DNA of 64,000 nt from Pelobacter propionicus DSM 2379 (GTDB lineage Bacteria > Desulfobacterota > Desulfuromonadia > Geobacterales > Pseudopelobacteraceae): positions 62,001 through 126,000 of the forward strand of contig NC_008609.1 in the NCBI RefSeq assembly GCF_000015045.1, read 5' to 3'. The position numbers were made by a program, and so were the translations under genes. Position 1 is the stretch's first letter. Every line of letters starts with the position of its first letter. This document shows, piece by piece, positions 52,150 to 64,000 of the stretch. The notes under the pieces were generated by a model. It worked only from the letters and a program-made list of their open reading frames with translations. It searched no databases and was not told the origin of the DNA.

Positions 52150-52197
52150 GTCCAACACCAGGCTGACCGGCTTGACCGGTCGAGCCGTGAGTTGGAC
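52150..52197. other. attC-like recombination site 1
   Basis: GTCCAAC at 52150-52156 and GTTGGAC at 52191-52197 match the integron core consensus RYYYAAC / GTTRRRY exactly. Inside are GGCT-G-ACCGG and CCGGT-CG-AGCC, a second stem separated by unpaired bases, as in attC R and L boxes. At 48 bp it is shorter than most attC sites. It lies about 70 bp beyond the 3' end of the minus-strand UDG-like gene, the expected place for a cassette attC. Confidence 0.55.
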
Positions 52198-55704: not shown

Positions 55705-56823
55705 ATGAGCATGCTCATAGACCCAGAAAGAATCACCTATGCTCGTGAGTTGAAAGGCTTTTCCAAAAAGGACTTAGCCCAGAAGGTGGATAAAACCCCG
55801 AGTGCCATTTCCCAAATAGAGAAGAGTATCATCAGGCCTGACACAGAGACGTTGATGCGGATTTCACTCGCGCTTTCCGTCCCCCCCAGTTTTTTCGCCA
55901 AAAAAGAAGGGAGGCGGTACATAAATCTGGGGCAGTGCCACTTCAGGTCCAAGAGATCTGTCAGCCAAGCTAAAAGAAAGCAAAGCGTCCGCATAGGCGA
56001 CTTTTTCATCGAATTCGTCGATTTCCTTCAGCAACAAGGGATTGTCTTCCCCGAAGAGAAGTTGTCGGGATTCCAATCTTTCCAGCCCAAAAGCATGGAG
56101 GATATAGAGATAGTCGCAGCTGAATTGAGAAGGTCCTGGGGCATGAGCCTGGGTCCTATCCCAAACGTCACGAGGCTCCTAGAAAGCAAAGGCATTATAG
56201 TCACGCCCATCTACAATAGCTGCACTGAGGTGGACGCTTTTTCGGTATGGGCGGGAAAGCGCCCCTGGGTGATGCTCGCCCTAGGGAAGACTGCCAGCAG
56301 GGCTAGGTTTGATGCCGCGCATGAATTGGGGCACCTGGTCCTGCATGAGGAGCACACGCCAGGATGTTCGCTGACCGAAAACGAAGCGGACCGCTTTGCC
56401 GGGGCTTTTCTGGCTCCAAGGGACAGCTTTATCCTGGAATGCCCGAGGCGATGGGACTATGAGGCTTTTGAGAAGTTGAAACTCCGATGGAAGATGTCGA
56501 TCCAGGCGTTGGTTTACCGGGCTTACAATCTGGGGGTCCTATCCCAACATTCGTTGAGAAAAGCCTTTATTTCGATATCGCAAAGCGGCCAGCGCAAGGA
56601 TGAGGGCACAGAGTGGGCCAAGGAACAGCCTACGCTATTCAACCAAGCGTTGGAACTTATCTGCGACAAGGTGTCGTTGAACGAGATAGCTTCCAGTCTC
56701 TGTGTGTCCAAGGCGGATCTGATCGGCTATTTGAACGATGCGATATCTGAAGATTTGCTGGCTAGGCTTGATAAAAAGGGCGAGGACCAAAATGGGCAAT
56801 TGGTCTTCTTGCGCGAAAGCTAG
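55705..56823 (+). CDS. XRE regulator fused to ImmA/IrrE-type metallopeptidase
   Basis: 372 residues. The N-terminal XRE helix-turn-helix (about 10-65: LKGFSKKDLAQKVDKTPSAISQIE) is followed by an ImmA/IrrE zinc peptidase with His206 and His210 in AHELGHLVLHEE and the downstream ENEADRFAGAFLAP. Relatives cleave a partner repressor or act as antitoxins. It is the second gene of a plus-strand pair in the cassette region. Confidence 0.85.
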   Translation: MSMLIDPERITYARELKGFSKKDLAQKVDKTPSAISQIEKSIIRPDTETLMRISLALSVPPSFFAKKEGRRYINLGQCHFRSKRSVSQAKRKQSVRIGDFFIEFVDFLQQQGIVFPEEKLSGFQSFQPKSMEDIEIVAAELRRSWGMSLGPIPNVTRLLESKGIIVTPIYNSCTEVDAFSVWAGKRPWVMLALGKTASRARFDAAHELGHLVLHEEHTPGCSLTENEADRFAGAFLAPRDSFILECPRRWDYEAFEKLKLRWKMSIQALVYRAYNLGVLSQHSLRKAFISISQSGQRKDEGTEWAKEQPTLFNQALELICDKVSLNEIASSLCVSKADLIGYLNDAISEDLLARLDKKGEDQNGQLVFLRES

Positions 56824-57042: not shown

Positions 57043-57097
57043 GATCAACGGCTCAAGGGGTCTGCGGGGCTTCTCCGCAGCACCCCGTTGGTTGGGC
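57043..57097. other. attC-like recombination site 2
   Basis: CAACGG at 57047 pairs with CCGTTG at 57085-57090; an inner stem is GGGG-T-CTGCGG / CCGCAG-CA-CCCC with an unpaired base on one side. GATCAAC is a 6/7 match to RYYYAAC and GTTGGGC at 57091 an exact GTTRRRY. It lies 24 bp beyond the stop of the minus-strand nuclease-like gene. Confidence 0.45.
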
Positions 57098-57120: not shown

Positions 57121-58089
57121 TCAGTTGTTGACCCACATGATGATTTCGGCAGGATGAAACTCTGCGCCTACGCACTCCACTATTGGGCGCGCGTTCAGGG
57201 CAGACATTAGATCTGACGATGGCACTCGCCCGCCGTGGCATTCAATGAACGCCTTTGGCGGAAACCCATTATGGTGATACTGAAACGCATGCGCAATGCC
57301 GTCTATCAGAGGTTCACATCGAGTTGCACGCATCAGCTGATGTTGGTGCCGGATAACGAGTACGCCGTCTATGTGAGGGTAACGCACTGCGCTACCTTGA
57401 GCGTCACGATGGAACGAATTTGGTGTAAGAAGACCTGACTCGGGGCTCGTAAGCGCCGCGATAGGCTCATTACTGAAGTCGTCCCATAGGATTGCAAGAA
57501 CACGGAACGAGCCAGGTCGATAGTTTTCGTAGGCCGCAAACTTCTGCTCAGCCGAGATCAGGAAGTCTTTAACTGGGTTGTCTCGTGGCAAAGTTACGTT
57601 CTCGTATGGCAATCCACCCGACGGCAGGCGGATGCCAACTTGCCAGTCATTTTGTGCTCGAAGCCGCCCGTGCTGAATCAGACGCGGCGTTTTCACCTCG
57701 ATCGCGCACCATTGGCCACTCACGCGCACTTCTAACTCCGGGTTCTTCTGTTGTCCAGCCGCAGGTTCGTGCGCGAATTGAGGATTTCCATCCTCGATAT
57801 CTGCCCTCTCGCATAGGCCTGCGGTTACGTAGATTTCAGCAAGAATCGACAGAATTGCCTCGTATTGGTCCTCTCCTGTGTTCTCGATGGCTGAGATTCT
57901 TGATAACATTTCATTTGCGTAACCCGGAGTGATGGAATCGACTTTGTTGAGCGCGTCAATTAAGGCGGAGACGAACGGGAGGTCTATCCCCCGTGCCGAA
58001 TTGTTCGAGAAGAAGCACAGCATGTGACGTGGGTATTCTGCAGGAATACGTTCTAGGAGTCTGTCGGGCTTAACGCATTCAGCCGTCAT
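57121..58089 (-). CDS. nuclease-like protein with PD-(D/E)xK-type motif, perhaps 5'-truncated
   Basis: 322 residues, not assigned to a named family. The segment NPELEVRVSGQWCAIEVKTPRL has the E-x(n)-E-x-K pattern of restriction-type nucleases. The ATG at 58089 is only 20 bases from the end of the IS1182-type element, and GGAG is directly against it. The frame stays open upstream until a TAA supplied by the IS end, so the insertion may have removed the true start. Its 3' side meets attC-like site 2. Confidence 0.5.
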   Translation of the reverse strand: MTAECVKPDRLLERIPAEYPRHMLCFFSNNSARGIDLPFVSALIDALNKVDSITPGYANEMLSRISAIENTGEDQYEAILSILAEIYVTAGLCERADIEDGNPQFAHEPAAGQQKNPELEVRVSGQWCAIEVKTPRLIQHGRLRAQNDWQVGIRLPSGGLPYENVTLPRDNPVKDFLISAEQKFAAYENYRPGSFRVLAILWDDFSNEPIAALTSPESGLLTPNSFHRDAQGSAVRYPHIDGVLVIRHQHQLMRATRCEPLIDGIAHAFQYHHNGFPPKAFIECHGGRVPSSDLMSALNARPIVECVGAEFHPAEIIMWVNN

Positions 58090-58108
58090 CTCCAGGGCGT
58101 TTTCAATT

Positions 58109-59641
58109 GGTTAACCTGCTGTATTTATTGAATAAGTCGTCAGCTTTAGCTTGCGTTTTCTTGGTGTATCCCGTATATTTGTCCGGTAATATCAACTGGT
58201 TAGGTATCGGGGTTGACTATGAAATCAAAGTTTATTGAAGTTGACCGGGAAACACCCTATCTGCTCCCGCCATCGCTGCAGGATTGGCTACCAGAAAAGC
58301 ACTTGGCCCGGTTTGTGGTCGAAATTGTCGAACAGCTCGACCTGCGCTCTTTGAAAGCTACCTATGCCGGCCGAGGCTCGCAGCCCTATAACCCTGAGAT
58401 GCTGGTAGCATTGTTGTTTTACGGTTATGCGACAGGCGTATTCTCCAGCCGGAAGCTTGAGCGCAGCACCTACGACTCCGTGGCATTCCGGTTCATAGCG
58501 GCAAACAGTCATCCTGACCACGATACCATTGCCACCTTCCGCCGGCGGTTTCTGCCGCAACTGAACAAGCTGTTTGCCCAGATTCTGCTGATCGCTCATC
58601 AGATGGAGGTGCTGAAACTGGGCAACGTTAGTTTGGATGGCAGCAAAATCAAGGCGAATGCCTCCAAGCACAAGGCGCTGAGCTATGAGCATGCCTGCAA
58701 GCTTGAAGAGCAGATCAAGGCTGAGGTTGGCGAACTGCTCAAAAAGGCCGAGGCAGCGGACCATGCCGATATTCCGGACGGCATGAACATCCCCGAAGAA
58801 CTGGAACGTCGGGAAAAGCGTCTTTCCGCCATTGCCGCAGCCAAGGTCGAGATCAAAAAACGTGCCGCTGAGCGCCATGCTCGTGAACAGGCCGCTTATG
58901 AGAAGAAAGTCGCCGAACGGGCCAAGAAGGAGCAGGCAACGGGCAAGAAGGCCAAGGGGAAAGAGCCGAAACCGCCCAAATCCGGCCCCACTGCCAAAGA
59001 TCAGGTCAATCTGACCGATGAAGAGTCGCGGATCATGCCGACCTCCGGTGGCGGATTCGAGCAGACGTACAACGCCCAGGCCGGTGTGGATACGGCATCA
59101 AAGCTCATCGTTTCGGCCCATGTTACCCAGAATCCCAATGACAAACAGGAGCTGACACCGACCCTGGAGAACCTGGCGGCGCTGCCTGAGAAGCTTGGCA
59201 AGGCAACCGATCTGGTAGCTGACAGTGGCTACTTCAGCGAAACCAATGTAACTGCCTGTGAGGAGAACGGGATAACTCCCTACATTGCCGTAGACCGGCA
59301 GAGTCACAACGTGCCACTGATGGAGCGCTTTGCCGAACCGCCGCCGTTACCCGAAGATGCCGATTCCGTGGCCAGAATGAAGCATCGCCTGAAGACACCT
59401 TCCGGCAAGGCGATCTACGCCCAGCGAAAAGTCACCTCGGAACCGGTCTTCGGCATCATCAAGGCGGTCATGGGATTCAGAAGCTTTCTTCTTCGTGGCT
59501 TTGAAGCAGTAAAAGGCGAATGGAACCTCGTCTGCATGGCCTACAACATCAAACGGCTGCATGTCTTGGCCGGATAGAATGAGAAATAGCGAAAATCAGC
59601 CTGTAATAACCGCAGTCATCGCTGAAAGGGCTGAATTAACC
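58109..59641. mobile_element. IS1182-type insertion sequence
   Basis: A single transposase gene flanked by short inverted ends GGTTAA (58109-58114) and TTAACC (59636-59641); the internal 20 bases of the ends are only partly complementary, so the limits are approximate. No clear target duplication is visible. It inserted between the start of the nuclease-like gene and attC-like site 3. Confidence 0.7.
58219..59577 (+). CDS. IS1182 family transposase
   Basis: 452 residues. The N-terminal part FIEVDRETPYLLPPSLQDWLPEKHLARFV and YNPEMLVALLFYGYATGV is typical of IS1182/IS5-like DDE transposases. Catalytic blocks: LDGSKIKANASKH (first Asp), VADSGYFSE (second Asp) and KVTSEPVFGIIKAVMGFR (Glu). A charged Lys/Glu-rich insertion lies between the first and second. 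It is full length and looks active. I used ATG 58219 (MKSKFIEV); TTG 58213 is also in frame. Confidence 0.92.
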   Translation: MKSKFIEVDRETPYLLPPSLQDWLPEKHLARFVVEIVEQLDLRSLKATYAGRGSQPYNPEMLVALLFYGYATGVFSSRKLERSTYDSVAFRFIAANSHPDHDTIATFRRRFLPQLNKLFAQILLIAHQMEVLKLGNVSLDGSKIKANASKHKALSYEHACKLEEQIKAEVGELLKKAEAADHADIPDGMNIPEELERREKRLSAIAAAKVEIKKRAAERHAREQAAYEKKVAERAKKEQATGKKAKGKEPKPPKSGPTAKDQVNLTDEESRIMPTSGGGFEQTYNAQAGVDTASKLIVSAHVTQNPNDKQELTPTLENLAALPEKLGKATDLVADSGYFSETNVTACEENGITPYIAVDRQSHNVPLMERFAEPPPLPEDADSVARMKHRLKTPSGKAIYAQRKVTSEPVFGIIKAVMGFRSFLLRGFEAVKGEWNLVCMAYNIKRLHVLAG

Positions 59642-59803
59642 AGGTTGCCGGTGGGAAGACGAACACATACGGAACTTTTTTAATCGGCTTGGCCACAAAA
59701 GAGGGCGCCCCTGAGGTCAAGCCCGACAGACTCCTAGGAACGCCGTTCTTATTTCTTCCACTGACATATCAGCCTCTCCCGTGGTGCGAGTTCTTGGATT
59801 TTA

Positions 59804-59864
59804 GCCCAACGGGCATGGTTTTGACCCGCTAGCCTTTCCGGGCGGGTCGTAAACCTTGTTGGGT
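59804..59864. other. attC-like recombination site 3
   Basis: GCCCAAC (59804-59810) and GTTGGGT (59858-59864) match RYYYAAC and GTTRRRY exactly. Inside, GGTTTTGACCCGC faces GCGGGTCGTAAACC with unpaired T/GT, and a 12-base loop. At 61 bp it has the size and layout of a standard attC. It lies about 115 bp beyond the stop of the AAA_13 gene. The core GACCCGC(T/C)AGCC is shared with site 4 at the same 12-base distance from AAC. Confidence 0.65.
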
Positions 59865-59979
59865 CCTCAGTTCTTTTCAGTCCTATGTCTCGAGTTGACC
59901 CTCCGCCTTTCCAAACTCTTAAACTTGCGCCATTCAGCTCTGGCACCTCCATACTCTCCCAAGTGTTCACTTTTGCCTC

Positions 59980-62589
59980 TTAAGCTTGTGGAGTTTTGAC
60001 TGCCTTTTTATGAGCTTTAATCTTTGCCTTGATAACGTCGTAGCGGGTAATTTCTTCCATAAAGTTATCTATTGTTGGTTTTTTATATGCGTATTTGTCA
60101 CTGTGCGAATGCCCTTCCATGTATTGACAACACTGATAAAATCCATCTTGTAATTTGTCTGCCAACTCACGGCAAAAACAAGCTTCGTTAAGGGAATCAA
60201 CGCTCACGCGTTCAGCGAATCGCTGAACAACATCGCTGAACATCCCACTGATAACAAGCATCTCATAGCAAGTGCGAAGGGCAGTAAACCCTGCCTTCGT
60301 CAAATACTCTCTGCGGTCAGGTGGGCAAGTGGCTTCTTTTGCTTCGCTGTAATGCGCCATTGGTATGTTGGAATTGCGGTATTTTTTCTCAAAAGACGGC
60401 GAACTATTAATAAAAACATGCCCAGGTTTTTCGTCACGTTTTTCAATCCAATGGCAGGTATAAAGCGTTTTGGTAGCTTCGCAAATGGAAATAAGGGTTG
60501 AAACGAATACTAAATCGTGCGTAAAAACTACAATTTGCTTTTTAGCTGTTTCGTTGACGATGCGATTGCCGATAAGGCATTTCCTCTCATCGTCAAGGGA
60601 GGTTACGGGATCATCAAAGATAATGCCTCGCGTAATCTCCGAAAGGTTGATTTCTGCCAAGAAGTCGGCTAGGGAAATTACTTTTTGCTCCCCTTCGCTT
60701 AGTATCTGCGATGGTTGATTCTTGCCTTTCAAAAAAAGCTGCTTATAGGAAGCCCCTGATGCACCAGTGTGGCTTATATCAATTTCGAAATGGCCGTCCA
60801 GTGCTTCGCATTCCTGGTTGAAAGAGGCGGCATAGGCATCATTGAAGTATTTTCCAGACAGCTCTTTTGCCTTCTTTGTCAGCTGTAACCTAGATATATT
60901 ATCTTTTGCAGTTTTTGCGGCTGTATCGGCCCAAATCAAACAATCAATATACGATTCAATGTCACTTATGTGCTGCTCAAGTTTTTCTTTGTGATTCAAA
61001 AAAGTAATGGTGGTCTGTAGCTTTTTAATTTCCTCAGAAGGGTCATTTTTTTGCAATTTGGTAATAGCTGTGTCGATAGATGTTGAAATAGTGTCAATAG
61101 GTGTAGTCTCGATTACGACTGCTGCTCGTTTATTTATTACCTTAGTTTCAATGTCTGAGCTTATGTCAGCTGCTAATGCCTTCTGAATCAACAGGCTTGC
61201 CTTAATACCTTTTAGCTGTTCAGGATGGTTTTCAAGGAGCCATGTAGTCAAGACCGCATCATCTGGCAGAAGATCGAATTTCAAACCATCATATACCGCC
61301 TTAGTCGCCTTCAAGACACCATTCGCAGCTGTAGCATTATGTTCCGCCTGGCTTTTTATGAAAACCCAGTACGACTCAATTAGTTTTTTCGCCTCCGCCG
61401 ATAAAGGCTGCCGGCAAAAAAGGCATGTGTCTATGTCCTTGGGGTAAGGTCCACCATTATCCTCTTGCTGAATCGCAAATTTATTGGCCGCAACAATGAA
61501 AGCCTTCCATTCAGCGCTTTCGACTTTTTCAAATGTATCCGTCTTGACGTTTTCAAGCCCCTCATTATTTGCGATTTCATCCTTGGTTATACAATCAGAT
61601 ATGGCTGTCTGGATGGCAAGAAGTGCTTCGGCGGACAGTTGTTTATTGTTGTCGGCTATCGAAGTTTTCAGCGTTTCCAGTAACTTCTTATTGTTAGTTA
61701 GTATCCCAATTTCTTTGTCTTTTTTTAACGCCTGTAATTGAACCTTCTGGCTTTCAAGTTCTGTTCTCTTTGCCTTGTCTGCCTCTGTAAAAGGTATCAT
61801 CTTCTTTAAGTCGGCAACCTTTGTTTTAGCAGACAAATTCACCATGAATTCCCTTATTGCTGATTCGCCGTCGAATAAAGCTCCATAATCCTTTGGGGCT
61901 ATTTTCGTACTGACTTCTTTCTCAATTTTTTCTTCAAGTTTCCTGAATGCATCGGTTAAATCAGCGAAAAAATTAAGTCCTGCGGGTCTAAACTCGGGTC
62001 TGTTTTTTGCTAAATGTATGCTTACGCATTTGTTATCAAAAATTGAAAACTGTTTAAATTCTGTTTTATCTTTCTGGGTTGGATAGTTCAAGGTATATGG
62101 CGTTGCATCTGTCTTAAACTCAAAAATAGCTTTGGTTGCTTTATGCCCAGAGGCTAAATGTATATTTGGAATAATTGGTTCGGTTGTGCGACTGTGAAAG
62201 GCTTGTTTCAGTAGACGAATATAACCAGATTTACCTGAGCCGTTAACACCATATATGATTGTAAGTTTTGGGCTAAATTCAATGGTTTGTTTCTCAACAA
62301 GGGCGTTCACACCCTCTACCCCGTAAAGACTGCTAAGGAGCAGATTTTTATGGTAATCGCTATTCGAGATGCTGTCGCAAGTAATATTAATGCTTTTTCT
62401 GTGTTTTTTCTCCTGCAGGCCTGCGTCTTCAAGAAAATAGGCGTATGCATCATTTATGTCATTGTCTGTTACTTCTGTTCCGGAAAGAAGTTTGCCTGCC
62501 AAATATTTGGTGTAGTACGGCAGGGAGCAGGCGTATTTCATAATCTGGGAATTAAGATTATCGGCGTTTGTAACAGACACCTCTGTCAT
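59980..62589 (-). CDS. AAA_13/RloC-like defence ATPase
   Basis: 869 residues. Walker A GVNGSGKS (near 114-121), two long coiled coils around a zinc-hook-like CLFCRQP (near 385), then signature LSEGEQKVISLADF, Walker B GIIFDDPVTSLDDE and His in VVFTHD. The C-terminal ~150 residues (ALRTCYEML...EGHSHSDKY) have the R-x3-E ... H order seen in PrrC/RloC anticodon nuclease or HEPN domains. RloC-type proteins sense DNA damage or phage and cleave tRNA; that activity is not proven here. It is AT-rich and fills the interval between attC-like sites 3 and 4, as a cassette gene would. Confidence 0.75.
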   Translation of the reverse strand: MTEVSVTNADNLNSQIMKYACSLPYYTKYLAGKLLSGTEVTDNDINDAYAYFLEDAGLQEKKHRKSINITCDSISNSDYHKNLLLSSLYGVEGVNALVEKQTIEFSPKLTIIYGVNGSGKSGYIRLLKQAFHSRTTEPIIPNIHLASGHKATKAIFEFKTDATPYTLNYPTQKDKTEFKQFSIFDNKCVSIHLAKNRPEFRPAGLNFFADLTDAFRKLEEKIEKEVSTKIAPKDYGALFDGESAIREFMVNLSAKTKVADLKKMIPFTEADKAKRTELESQKVQLQALKKDKEIGILTNNKKLLETLKTSIADNNKQLSAEALLAIQTAISDCITKDEIANNEGLENVKTDTFEKVESAEWKAFIVAANKFAIQQEDNGGPYPKDIDTCLFCRQPLSAEAKKLIESYWVFIKSQAEHNATAANGVLKATKAVYDGLKFDLLPDDAVLTTWLLENHPEQLKGIKASLLIQKALAADISSDIETKVINKRAAVVIETTPIDTISTSIDTAITKLQKNDPSEEIKKLQTTITFLNHKEKLEQHISDIESYIDCLIWADTAAKTAKDNISRLQLTKKAKELSGKYFNDAYAASFNQECEALDGHFEIDISHTGASGASYKQLFLKGKNQPSQILSEGEQKVISLADFLAEINLSEITRGIIFDDPVTSLDDERKCLIGNRIVNETAKKQIVVFTHDLVFVSTLISICEATKTLYTCHWIEKRDEKPGHVFINSSPSFEKKYRNSNIPMAHYSEAKEATCPPDRREYLTKAGFTALRTCYEMLVISGMFSDVVQRFAERVSVDSLNEACFCRELADKLQDGFYQCCQYMEGHSHSDKYAYKKPTIDNFMEEITRYDVIKAKIKAHKKAVKTPQA

Positions 62590-62631
62590 GTGACCCTCCT
62601 TGAAATATATTGTTCATCATTCCATTTTTTC

Positions 62632-62696
62632 GGCCAACGAGGTCGGCCATGACCCGCCAGCCCAGTCTTTTCGGGCGGTCGGCGTCTATGGACGTG
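62632..62696. other. attC-like site 4, interrupted by a group II intron
   Basis: GGCCAAC, then 12 bases, then GACCCGCCAGCC, aligned position for position with site 3; the returning arm TTTTCGGGCGGTC follows, and CCATGAC faces GTCTATGG. The expected final GTTRRRY is absent because intron sequence begins about 62697. It lies about 40 bp before the start of the AAA_13 gene. Confidence 0.5.
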
Positions 62697-62918
62697 GTGT
62701 ACGCCCGGGATGGGCGTGAACTTATGGGGTGCAAGTCCCCTGTCTTTGAATCCGGTACCGTCGTGAGACGGGGCAAAAGTACTAGCCGACGGCAAGGGCG
62801 TCTCTGCGAGGAGCCGTCCGTGAGGAAGCCCGAGCGCAAAGCTATGAGCCGACGGACAGAAACAGCATACAAGGCCGTCATCCGGGCAAGCCAGCACCAC
62901 ATGACGAAGTCCCATGGA
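62697..62918 (+). mobile_element. group II intron, 5' fragment (domain I)
   Basis: Begins GTGTACGCCC and shows the usual domain I start: ACGCCC-GGGAT-GGGCGT stem, GGGG-TGCAAG-TCCCC, CCGTC-GTGA-GACGG with a GNRA-like loop, and the conserved ACAGAAACAGCATACAAGGC region. No reverse transcriptase or domain V/VI follows in the window because an IS21-type element begins at about 62919. The class cannot be fixed from this part. Confidence 0.72.
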
Positions 62919-64000
62919 TGTTGTCAATGGTAGTGCAATAATGTCCCAAAAGCGGTAACGAAAAGTGTACCGCCCTGGAAGCCGTGGTATCCCTTCTGGA
63001 GAAAGGAGGGGTGCCCATGATTTCCACGGAGGTAGTTATGGACATAGCCGCGCTCAAACGCTCCGGCCACAGTATCCGATGGATCGCACGCAAGTTGGGC
63101 ATTCATCGCAAGACCGTGAAGAAGTATCTCGAAAGCAACTCTTTCCCTGCCTATCATCGGAAAGACATCAAACCATCCATCCTTGAACCGTATCACCAGA
63201 TCATCCGGGATTTTCTCGATGAGGATGAATATCAGGCCACTTGGATACTCACCCGTATTAAAAGGATGGGGTATTCCGGCAGTTACGATACCCTCAAGGT
63301 ATTCGTCCGCTCCATCAAGGAACAGAAGCGGCGCATCGCCTATCAGCGCTTCGAAACGGAGCCTGGGCTCCAGGCCCAGGTTGACTGGGGAGATTTCAAG
63401 GTGGTCGAGTCCACGGGAAAGACCACAACCCTCTACGCCTTCGTGATGGTACTGGGATTTTCCCGGGCCATGTACGTCGAATTCGTTGAACGATGCACCC
63501 TGGAGGTGTTCATGGACTGTCACCTCCGGGCATTTCGCCACCTCAAGGGCGTTCCCGCCGAGATCCTCTACGACAACATGAAGCAGGTCGTCGTGGGCCG
63601 GGAGAATGGCCGGCCGGTGTTCAACACCGAATTCCTTCATTTTGCCAGGCACTACGGTTTTACGCCCCGCCTCTGCCCTCCCTACAGCCCCTGGGTAAAG
63701 GGAAAGGTCGAACGCCCCATGCACTATGTGCGAGAAAGTTTCTGGAGGGGGTACGGATTCCATTCTCTGGAAGAGACCAATCAGGATGTTGCCGCCTGGA
63801 TCGCGGAGACTGCCCACCAGCGCATCCACGGTACCCACCGTCAGCAGGTTCAGGCCCGCTGGGAGCAGGAGCAGCCCTGCCTGGGAGTTCTACCGCCCTC
63901 CGAATACGACACTTCCCTCAAGTATTTCCGCAAGGTCTACAAGGACTGCCTGCTTTCCTTTGGCGGCAACCGCTACTACGTTCCCTACCAGGAAGCCGGG
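62919..64000 (+). mobile_element. IS21-type insertion sequence, left part
   Basis: The left end is placed at TGTTGTCAATGG, about 98 bp before istA, where the intron sequence stops. The element runs past the end of the window; istB is not seen. Confidence 0.75.
63017..64000 (+). CDS. istA: IS21 family transposase IstA (partial, no stop in window)
   Basis: 328 codons read to the window edge without a stop. N-terminal helix-turn-helix IAALKRSGHSIRWIARKLG and HRKTVKKYL, then the DDE domain with QVDWGDF, EILYDNMKQ and PYSPWVKGKVERP, and PSEYD later. AAAGGAGG precedes ATG 63017. It is intact as far as seen. Confidence 0.93.
   Translation, partial: MISTEVVMDIAALKRSGHSIRWIARKLGIHRKTVKKYLESNSFPAYHRKDIKPSILEPYHQIIRDFLDEDEYQATWILTRIKRMGYSGSYDTLKVFVRSIKEQKRRIAYQRFETEPGLQAQVDWGDFKVVESTGKTTTLYAFVMVLGFSRAMYVEFVERCTLEVFMDCHLRAFRHLKGVPAEILYDNMKQVVVGRENGRPVFNTEFLHFARHYGFTPRLCPPYSPWVKGKVERPMHYVRESFWRGYGFHSLEETNQDVAAWIAETAHQRIHGTHRQQVQARWEQEQPCLGVLPPSEYDTSLKYFRKVYKDCLLSFGGNRYYVPYQEAG

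Follow-up and report, generated by a model that had tools for sequence, protein, structure and literature searches.

The DNA analyzed here (hereafter the window) is a stretch of 64,000 nucleotides from the chromosome of Pelobacter propionicus DSM 2379 (NC_008609.1, positions 62,001 to 126,000). Close to its right end lies a gene encoding an 869-amino-acid RloC-like ATP-binding cassette (ABC) ATPase/nuclease, bordered downstream by a complete attC site and upstream by a broken one; very probably, this gene is a single large integron cassette by origin. The locus comprises the following features, given as window coordinates and strand.

59980..62589 (-): RloC-like ABC-ATPase/nuclease gene, an intact open reading frame (ORF) of 869 codons; Pfam AAA_13, PADLOC PDC-S06
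59810..62637 (-): whole cassette, 2,828 bp from crossover to crossover, its R boxes recognized in the sequence
59804..59864 (-): complete 61-bp attC belonging to the cassette (left site), beginning 115 bp past the stop codon
62632..62698 (-): attC of the preceding cassette (right site), broken; GGCCAAC R box and both L stems, other R box interrupted
62699..62918 (+): group IIC-attC intron (RF02001), 5' fragment only, opposite to the cassette gene, 5' end at 62697-62699
62919..64000 (+): IS21-family insertion sequence (IS) element cutting the intron; repeat copies elsewhere in the genome, terminal sequences, istA-like and istB-like ORFs
58053..59737 (+): IS1182-family element in the neighboring cassette; its 22-nt inverted repeats are 95% complementary, and its transposase matches NF033551 (IS1182) above the cut-off

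The gene is read as a cassette on the basis of the complete downstream attC, an attC-specific intron in the upstream site, the recurrence of an attC core near the integron integrase, and a sharp change in GC content. The left site, which on the gene strand runs from ACCCAAC to GTTGGGC, contains both R boxes, a long inner stem with extrahelical bases and L stems, and is located downstream of the gene in the gene's own orientation, as expected of a cassette. It is the sole strict R''/R'-plus-stem match in the approximately 167 kb of this genome that were scanned, its fold as single-stranded DNA beats 200 of 200 shuffles (z -3.25), and no T run can be read after it. The upstream boundary, likewise as expected of a cassette, is a second attC that is no longer complete: two L stems and a single R box (GGCCAAC, 62632-62638) are retained, whereas the second R box is interrupted by the 5' end of the intron (single-strand DNA fold z -2.31). 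The core of this broken site recurs once in the genome, with at most 3 mismatches, only 5.7 kb from the integron integrase. An AGGAGG ribosome site precedes the gene, and the distance from the cassette boundary to the start codon is 48 bp. The GC content of the gene is 41%, compared to 62% in the surrounding chromosome (window positions 1-50000).

The intron is truncated after about 220 bases by the IS21-family element, which continues beyond the end of the window to about C3:127117, as far as the next chromosomal gene. In related genomes, intron copies generally begin at the same bases, and an attC-like hairpin forms the 5' exon in the majority of the copies inspected. Group IIC-attC introns enter the bottom strand of attC, opposite to cassette genes (PMC7923331), so that the orientation of the intron and its attC-like 5' exons match the published behavior. 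Since the covariance models called the attC sites of the window only weakly, the argument for a cassette rests on the R boxes, the fold and position of the sites, the intron and the shared motif. No integron integrase adjoins the gene, and the only full-score IntI of the genome is 2.7 Mb away; therefore, the locus is a worn cluster of attC sites lacking a neighboring integrase rather than an integron. An earlier note on this DNA had proposed an AAA_13 gene of 869 residues forming a single large cassette of about 2.8 kb between two related attC-like sites and had remarked that a whole abortive-infection gene carried in this way would be a notable mobile defense unit. The gene (Pfam E 2e-18) and the single cassette were borne out, and so was the left site; the right one turned out to be interrupted by the intron. 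With the upstream attC broken by the intron and an IS element, and the integrase far away, the cassette has probably lost its mobility here.

The protein contains the complete set of ABC ATPase motifs, namely, a P-loop (Walker A, residues 114-121), the signature LSEGE (630-634), a Walker B/D-loop DDPxxSLD (659-666), and H691. A CxxC zinc hook is present at residues 389-392, with both cysteines (C389 and C392) retained in all 81 homologues. The R-x3-E...H residues anticipated in the earlier note are present as a C-terminal triad, R772-x3-E776-x50-H827, in which R is conserved in 77, E in 79, and H in 79 of the 81 homologues. Hook and triad residues belong to just 22 invariant columns of a 59-sequence alignment. 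In the AlphaFold model, which is confident (mean predicted local distance difference test score 88.4), the hook is flanked by long helices. The C-terminal domain folds into a helical bundle in which a long helix carries E776 and the loop preceding the final helix carries H827; a similar placement of E and H is described for HEPN RNases. The solved structures nearest to the model are those of Rad50 and SMC proteins. The PADLOC profile PDC-S06 matches the protein over nearly its entire length (residues 13-858 of 869, E 1.8e-127); PDC-S06 is only a candidate family for phage defense.

RloC is defined as a hooked ABC ATPase of 658-897 aa with the motif R-X3-E-X36-52-H (PMC2610378, PMC3874168), and the 869-aa protein agrees with this definition in the hooked ATPase, the triad spacing and the size. 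It resembles the RloC proteins of Geobacillus kaustophilus and Acinetobacter baylyi in combining an ABC ATPase that carries a CxxC zinc-hook insert with R-x3-E and a later H at comparable size, and its ATPase lobe is homologous to that of the A. baylyi-type set (hhalign 97%, E 3e-11). Unlike A. baylyi RloC, it belongs to a distinct long clade whose N-terminal part is extended (the P-loop glycine is residue 114, versus 55) and, unlike the tested RloC proteins, it is encoded in an integron cassette. A. baylyi RloC was assigned to locus L213 by its features (length of 826 aa, hook at residue 314); its placement within the long clade was rejected, as it falls in a group with a shorter N-terminal part. 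The anticodon nuclease PrrC shares the ABC ATPase and the R-x3-E...H nuclease residues but lacks the zinc hook, has only about half the length, and is linked to a type I restriction system; no such restriction system was seen at this locus. The designation RloC-like, in place of RloC, reflects the lack of detectable similarity between its C-terminal domain and the one in A. baylyi RloC. The RloC-type architecture is supported, membership in RloC proper is putative, and the protein probably works like RloC, by analogy.

The earlier note would have been refuted if homologues were never found near attC sites; this is not the case, since relatives occur between attC sites or in integron arrays in Pseudohongiella sp., Aidingimonas lacisalsi, Desulfacinum infernum, and genomes G224 and G273. 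The scan of the 81 homologue loci used a covariance model for which attC sites from other integrons in the phylum had served as the training set. Relatives of the gene lie between attC sites in Pseudohongiella sp., A. lacisalsi and G224, and in D. infernum, an attC begins 25 bp after the stop codon of the relative; attC occurs beside or on both sides of relatives at loci L028, L040, L049, and L062. By reading of the sequence, the Pseudohongiella locus also contains an integrase remnant. In G273 (L149 4300-11324, G273:C48), a long-form (446 aa) integron integrase adjoins an array in which the relative comes first, followed by a TIR-like (spbK-type) gene and then by three attC matches; the RloC-like and TIR-like genes possibly form a two-gene defense cassette. 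On the tree of 79 homologues, the six integron loci require six label changes. Well-supported branches force at least five of these, and the count does not separate gain from loss. The integron copies are 864-873 aa long, compared to a median of 874 aa outside integrons. Integrons thus seem to pass on full-size copies of this gene type, with at least five other bacteria harboring integron-borne relatives. No attC was seen at the locus of the closest relative, from Nitrosomonas (L039, 47%). The best plasmid homologue (Chryseobacterium, 43%) adjoins methyltransferase and helicase genes, with no annotated integron. At locus L025, the relative follows the end of an apparent HsdS gene, by our reading of the sequence.

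Taken together, the best explanation appears to be a stranded integron cassette carrying a full-size RloC-like suicide defense gene, which we consider reasonably likely. A role in defense is in itself quite likely, and tRNA is an even bet as the target. DNA-break inducers activate A. baylyi RloC, and the hook restrains G. kaustophilus RloC (PMC2610378, PMC3874168); the model that follows is built on this work and on triad and hook mutants. The hooked Rad50-like ATPase would keep the C-terminal nuclease domain silent and, upon sensing DNA ends or damage during phage infection, would release it. The R772/E776/H827 site could then cleave tRNA in the anticodon loop, or other RNA, and translation would stop before phage release. 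Abortive infection, the function that had been suggested for this gene, is likewise an inference. As for its history, the cassette would have come from an integron pool with attC sites like the one beside the integrase of the host, exchange with the host's own pool being the simplest scenario, and would have been immobilized later by the intron and the two IS elements.

Several results weigh against this explanation. For the C-terminal domain, profile comparison to the A. baylyi-type set showed no detectable similarity (hhalign probability 0.8%, E 0.066), a Foldseek search with this domain alone produced no match at E 0.001 or better, and a second structural comparison listed HEPN proteins at Z 7-8, tied with unrelated bundles and hence not specific. 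Under default filters, the left attC was not called by covariance models trained on attC sites of other integrons; with the filters off, it scored weakly, with 11.6 bits (E about 0.3) in one run and 10.2 bits (E about 1.1) in the other, both over 14 kb, and the neighboring attC-like site at 57043-57097 also scores weakly. Among the 81 homologue loci, some of which are short contigs, attC was detected at only six, and a link to attC for every RloC-like gene was accordingly rejected. No clear promoter was found for the gene, its promoter-like matches being near the shuffled background.

The alternative that fares best retains the cassette, the defense role and the trigger but not the anticodon nuclease: the C-terminal, possibly HEPN-type, domain would cut mRNA, other RNA or DNA. 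In its favor are the lack of detectable similarity of this domain to that of A. baylyi RloC, the long clade's own N-terminal extension (with the shifted P-loop glycine, 114 versus 55), and the loose fold matches, which include HEPN toxins acting on various targets, LsoA being one. Against it, the triad spacing, R-x3-E-x(36-52)-H, agrees with the published definition of RloC, as do the hook and the protein length, and this alternative appears rather unlikely. Much less plausible is a non-cassette route, whereby the flanking hairpins would be terminators or chance palindromes and the gene would have arrived with an IS element or by other means. IS elements do flank the gene on both sides, the sites in the window score weakly in covariance models, and group IIC introns can enter terminators too (PMC7923331); nevertheless, complete R boxes and L stems lie right at the end of the gene with no T run after the left site, a sister site is located near IntI, and unmistakable attC sites accompany relatives, making this route very improbable. 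Least probable of all is a Rad50/SbcC-type ATPase for DNA repair or chromosome maintenance, neither toxin nor defense protein, because Rad50 and SbcC, although Rad50 and SMC proteins are the best solved-structure matches, lack the C-terminal domain, in which R, E and H are conserved across almost the whole set of homologues, and the patchy spread of the family (15 of 395 genomes of the phylum) suits defense over housekeeping.

Integron-borne phage-defense cassettes are already known (Darracq 2025, Getz 2025, and Kieffer 2025, as cited in PMC12409362 and PMC12444791), and the RloC-like cassette is a large addition to them. As in those cassettes, a putative defense gene is carried by an integron cassette; unlike the integron-borne defense genes described as streamlined in size (PMC12409362), the RloC-like cassette copies are full size (864-873 aa). 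Whether integrons have repeatedly and independently captured full-size hooked-ATPase/nuclease suicide genes, once with a TIR gene located between the captured gene and the first attC (G273), such that large self-contained defense genes escape the reported streamlining, seems to us finely balanced. No report of RloC as a cassette was found in the literature naming both RloC and integrons, most subscription papers being outside the search. With the RloC-like cassette, the repertoire of integron-borne phage defense would extend to a large single-protein system combining sensor and toxin. A probably lethal, partner-free gene found in integrons at six separate places provides a natural test of how dangerous cargo is carried and silenced, and the six integron-borne RloC-like proteins are directly testable against phages.

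Next to the cassette, two further features belong to the attC cluster.

57043..57097 (-): further attC-like site, on the same strand as the cassette gene and 24 bp beyond the stop codon of the neighboring ORF
57121 to about 58052-58089 (-): remainder of the apparent next cassette's gene, 5' end severed by the IS1182 element, the inverted repeat of which starts at 58053

The attC-like site has a score of 18.0, with a background of fewer than 1 per 446 kb, and a fold z of -3.32. Family searches with the gene from 57121 gave no match; this gene apparently represents the cluster's next cassette. Adjoining the cluster on the opposite strand (55705-56823) is a helix-turn-helix and IrrE-like (M78) gene resembling the spr1629 repressor/antitoxin family, with a match below the family cut-off. 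A 48-base hairpin at 52150-52197, with perfect 7-bp R boxes and a fold z of -5.1, is the best attC covariance-model match in the window (22.4 bits, E 0.0056 in 194 kb) and may be a further attC or a terminator-like palindrome.

The integron integrase of the host (L014 104-1528, G000:C3:2846104-2847528) is of the long form, with 474 aa; its TIGR02249 match begins at residue 162, and the first 160 residues form an unexplained extension. The possibility that long-form IntI is a non-integron recombinase was set aside, given the three attC matches in the array beside such an integrase in G273. In the same region (L014 5761-6500, G000:C3), an attC-like sequence is followed by two small ORFs that, judging from their sequences, resemble genes for a Phd-type antitoxin and a ParE/RelE-type toxin; together they may form a toxin-antitoxin cassette within the integron of the host.
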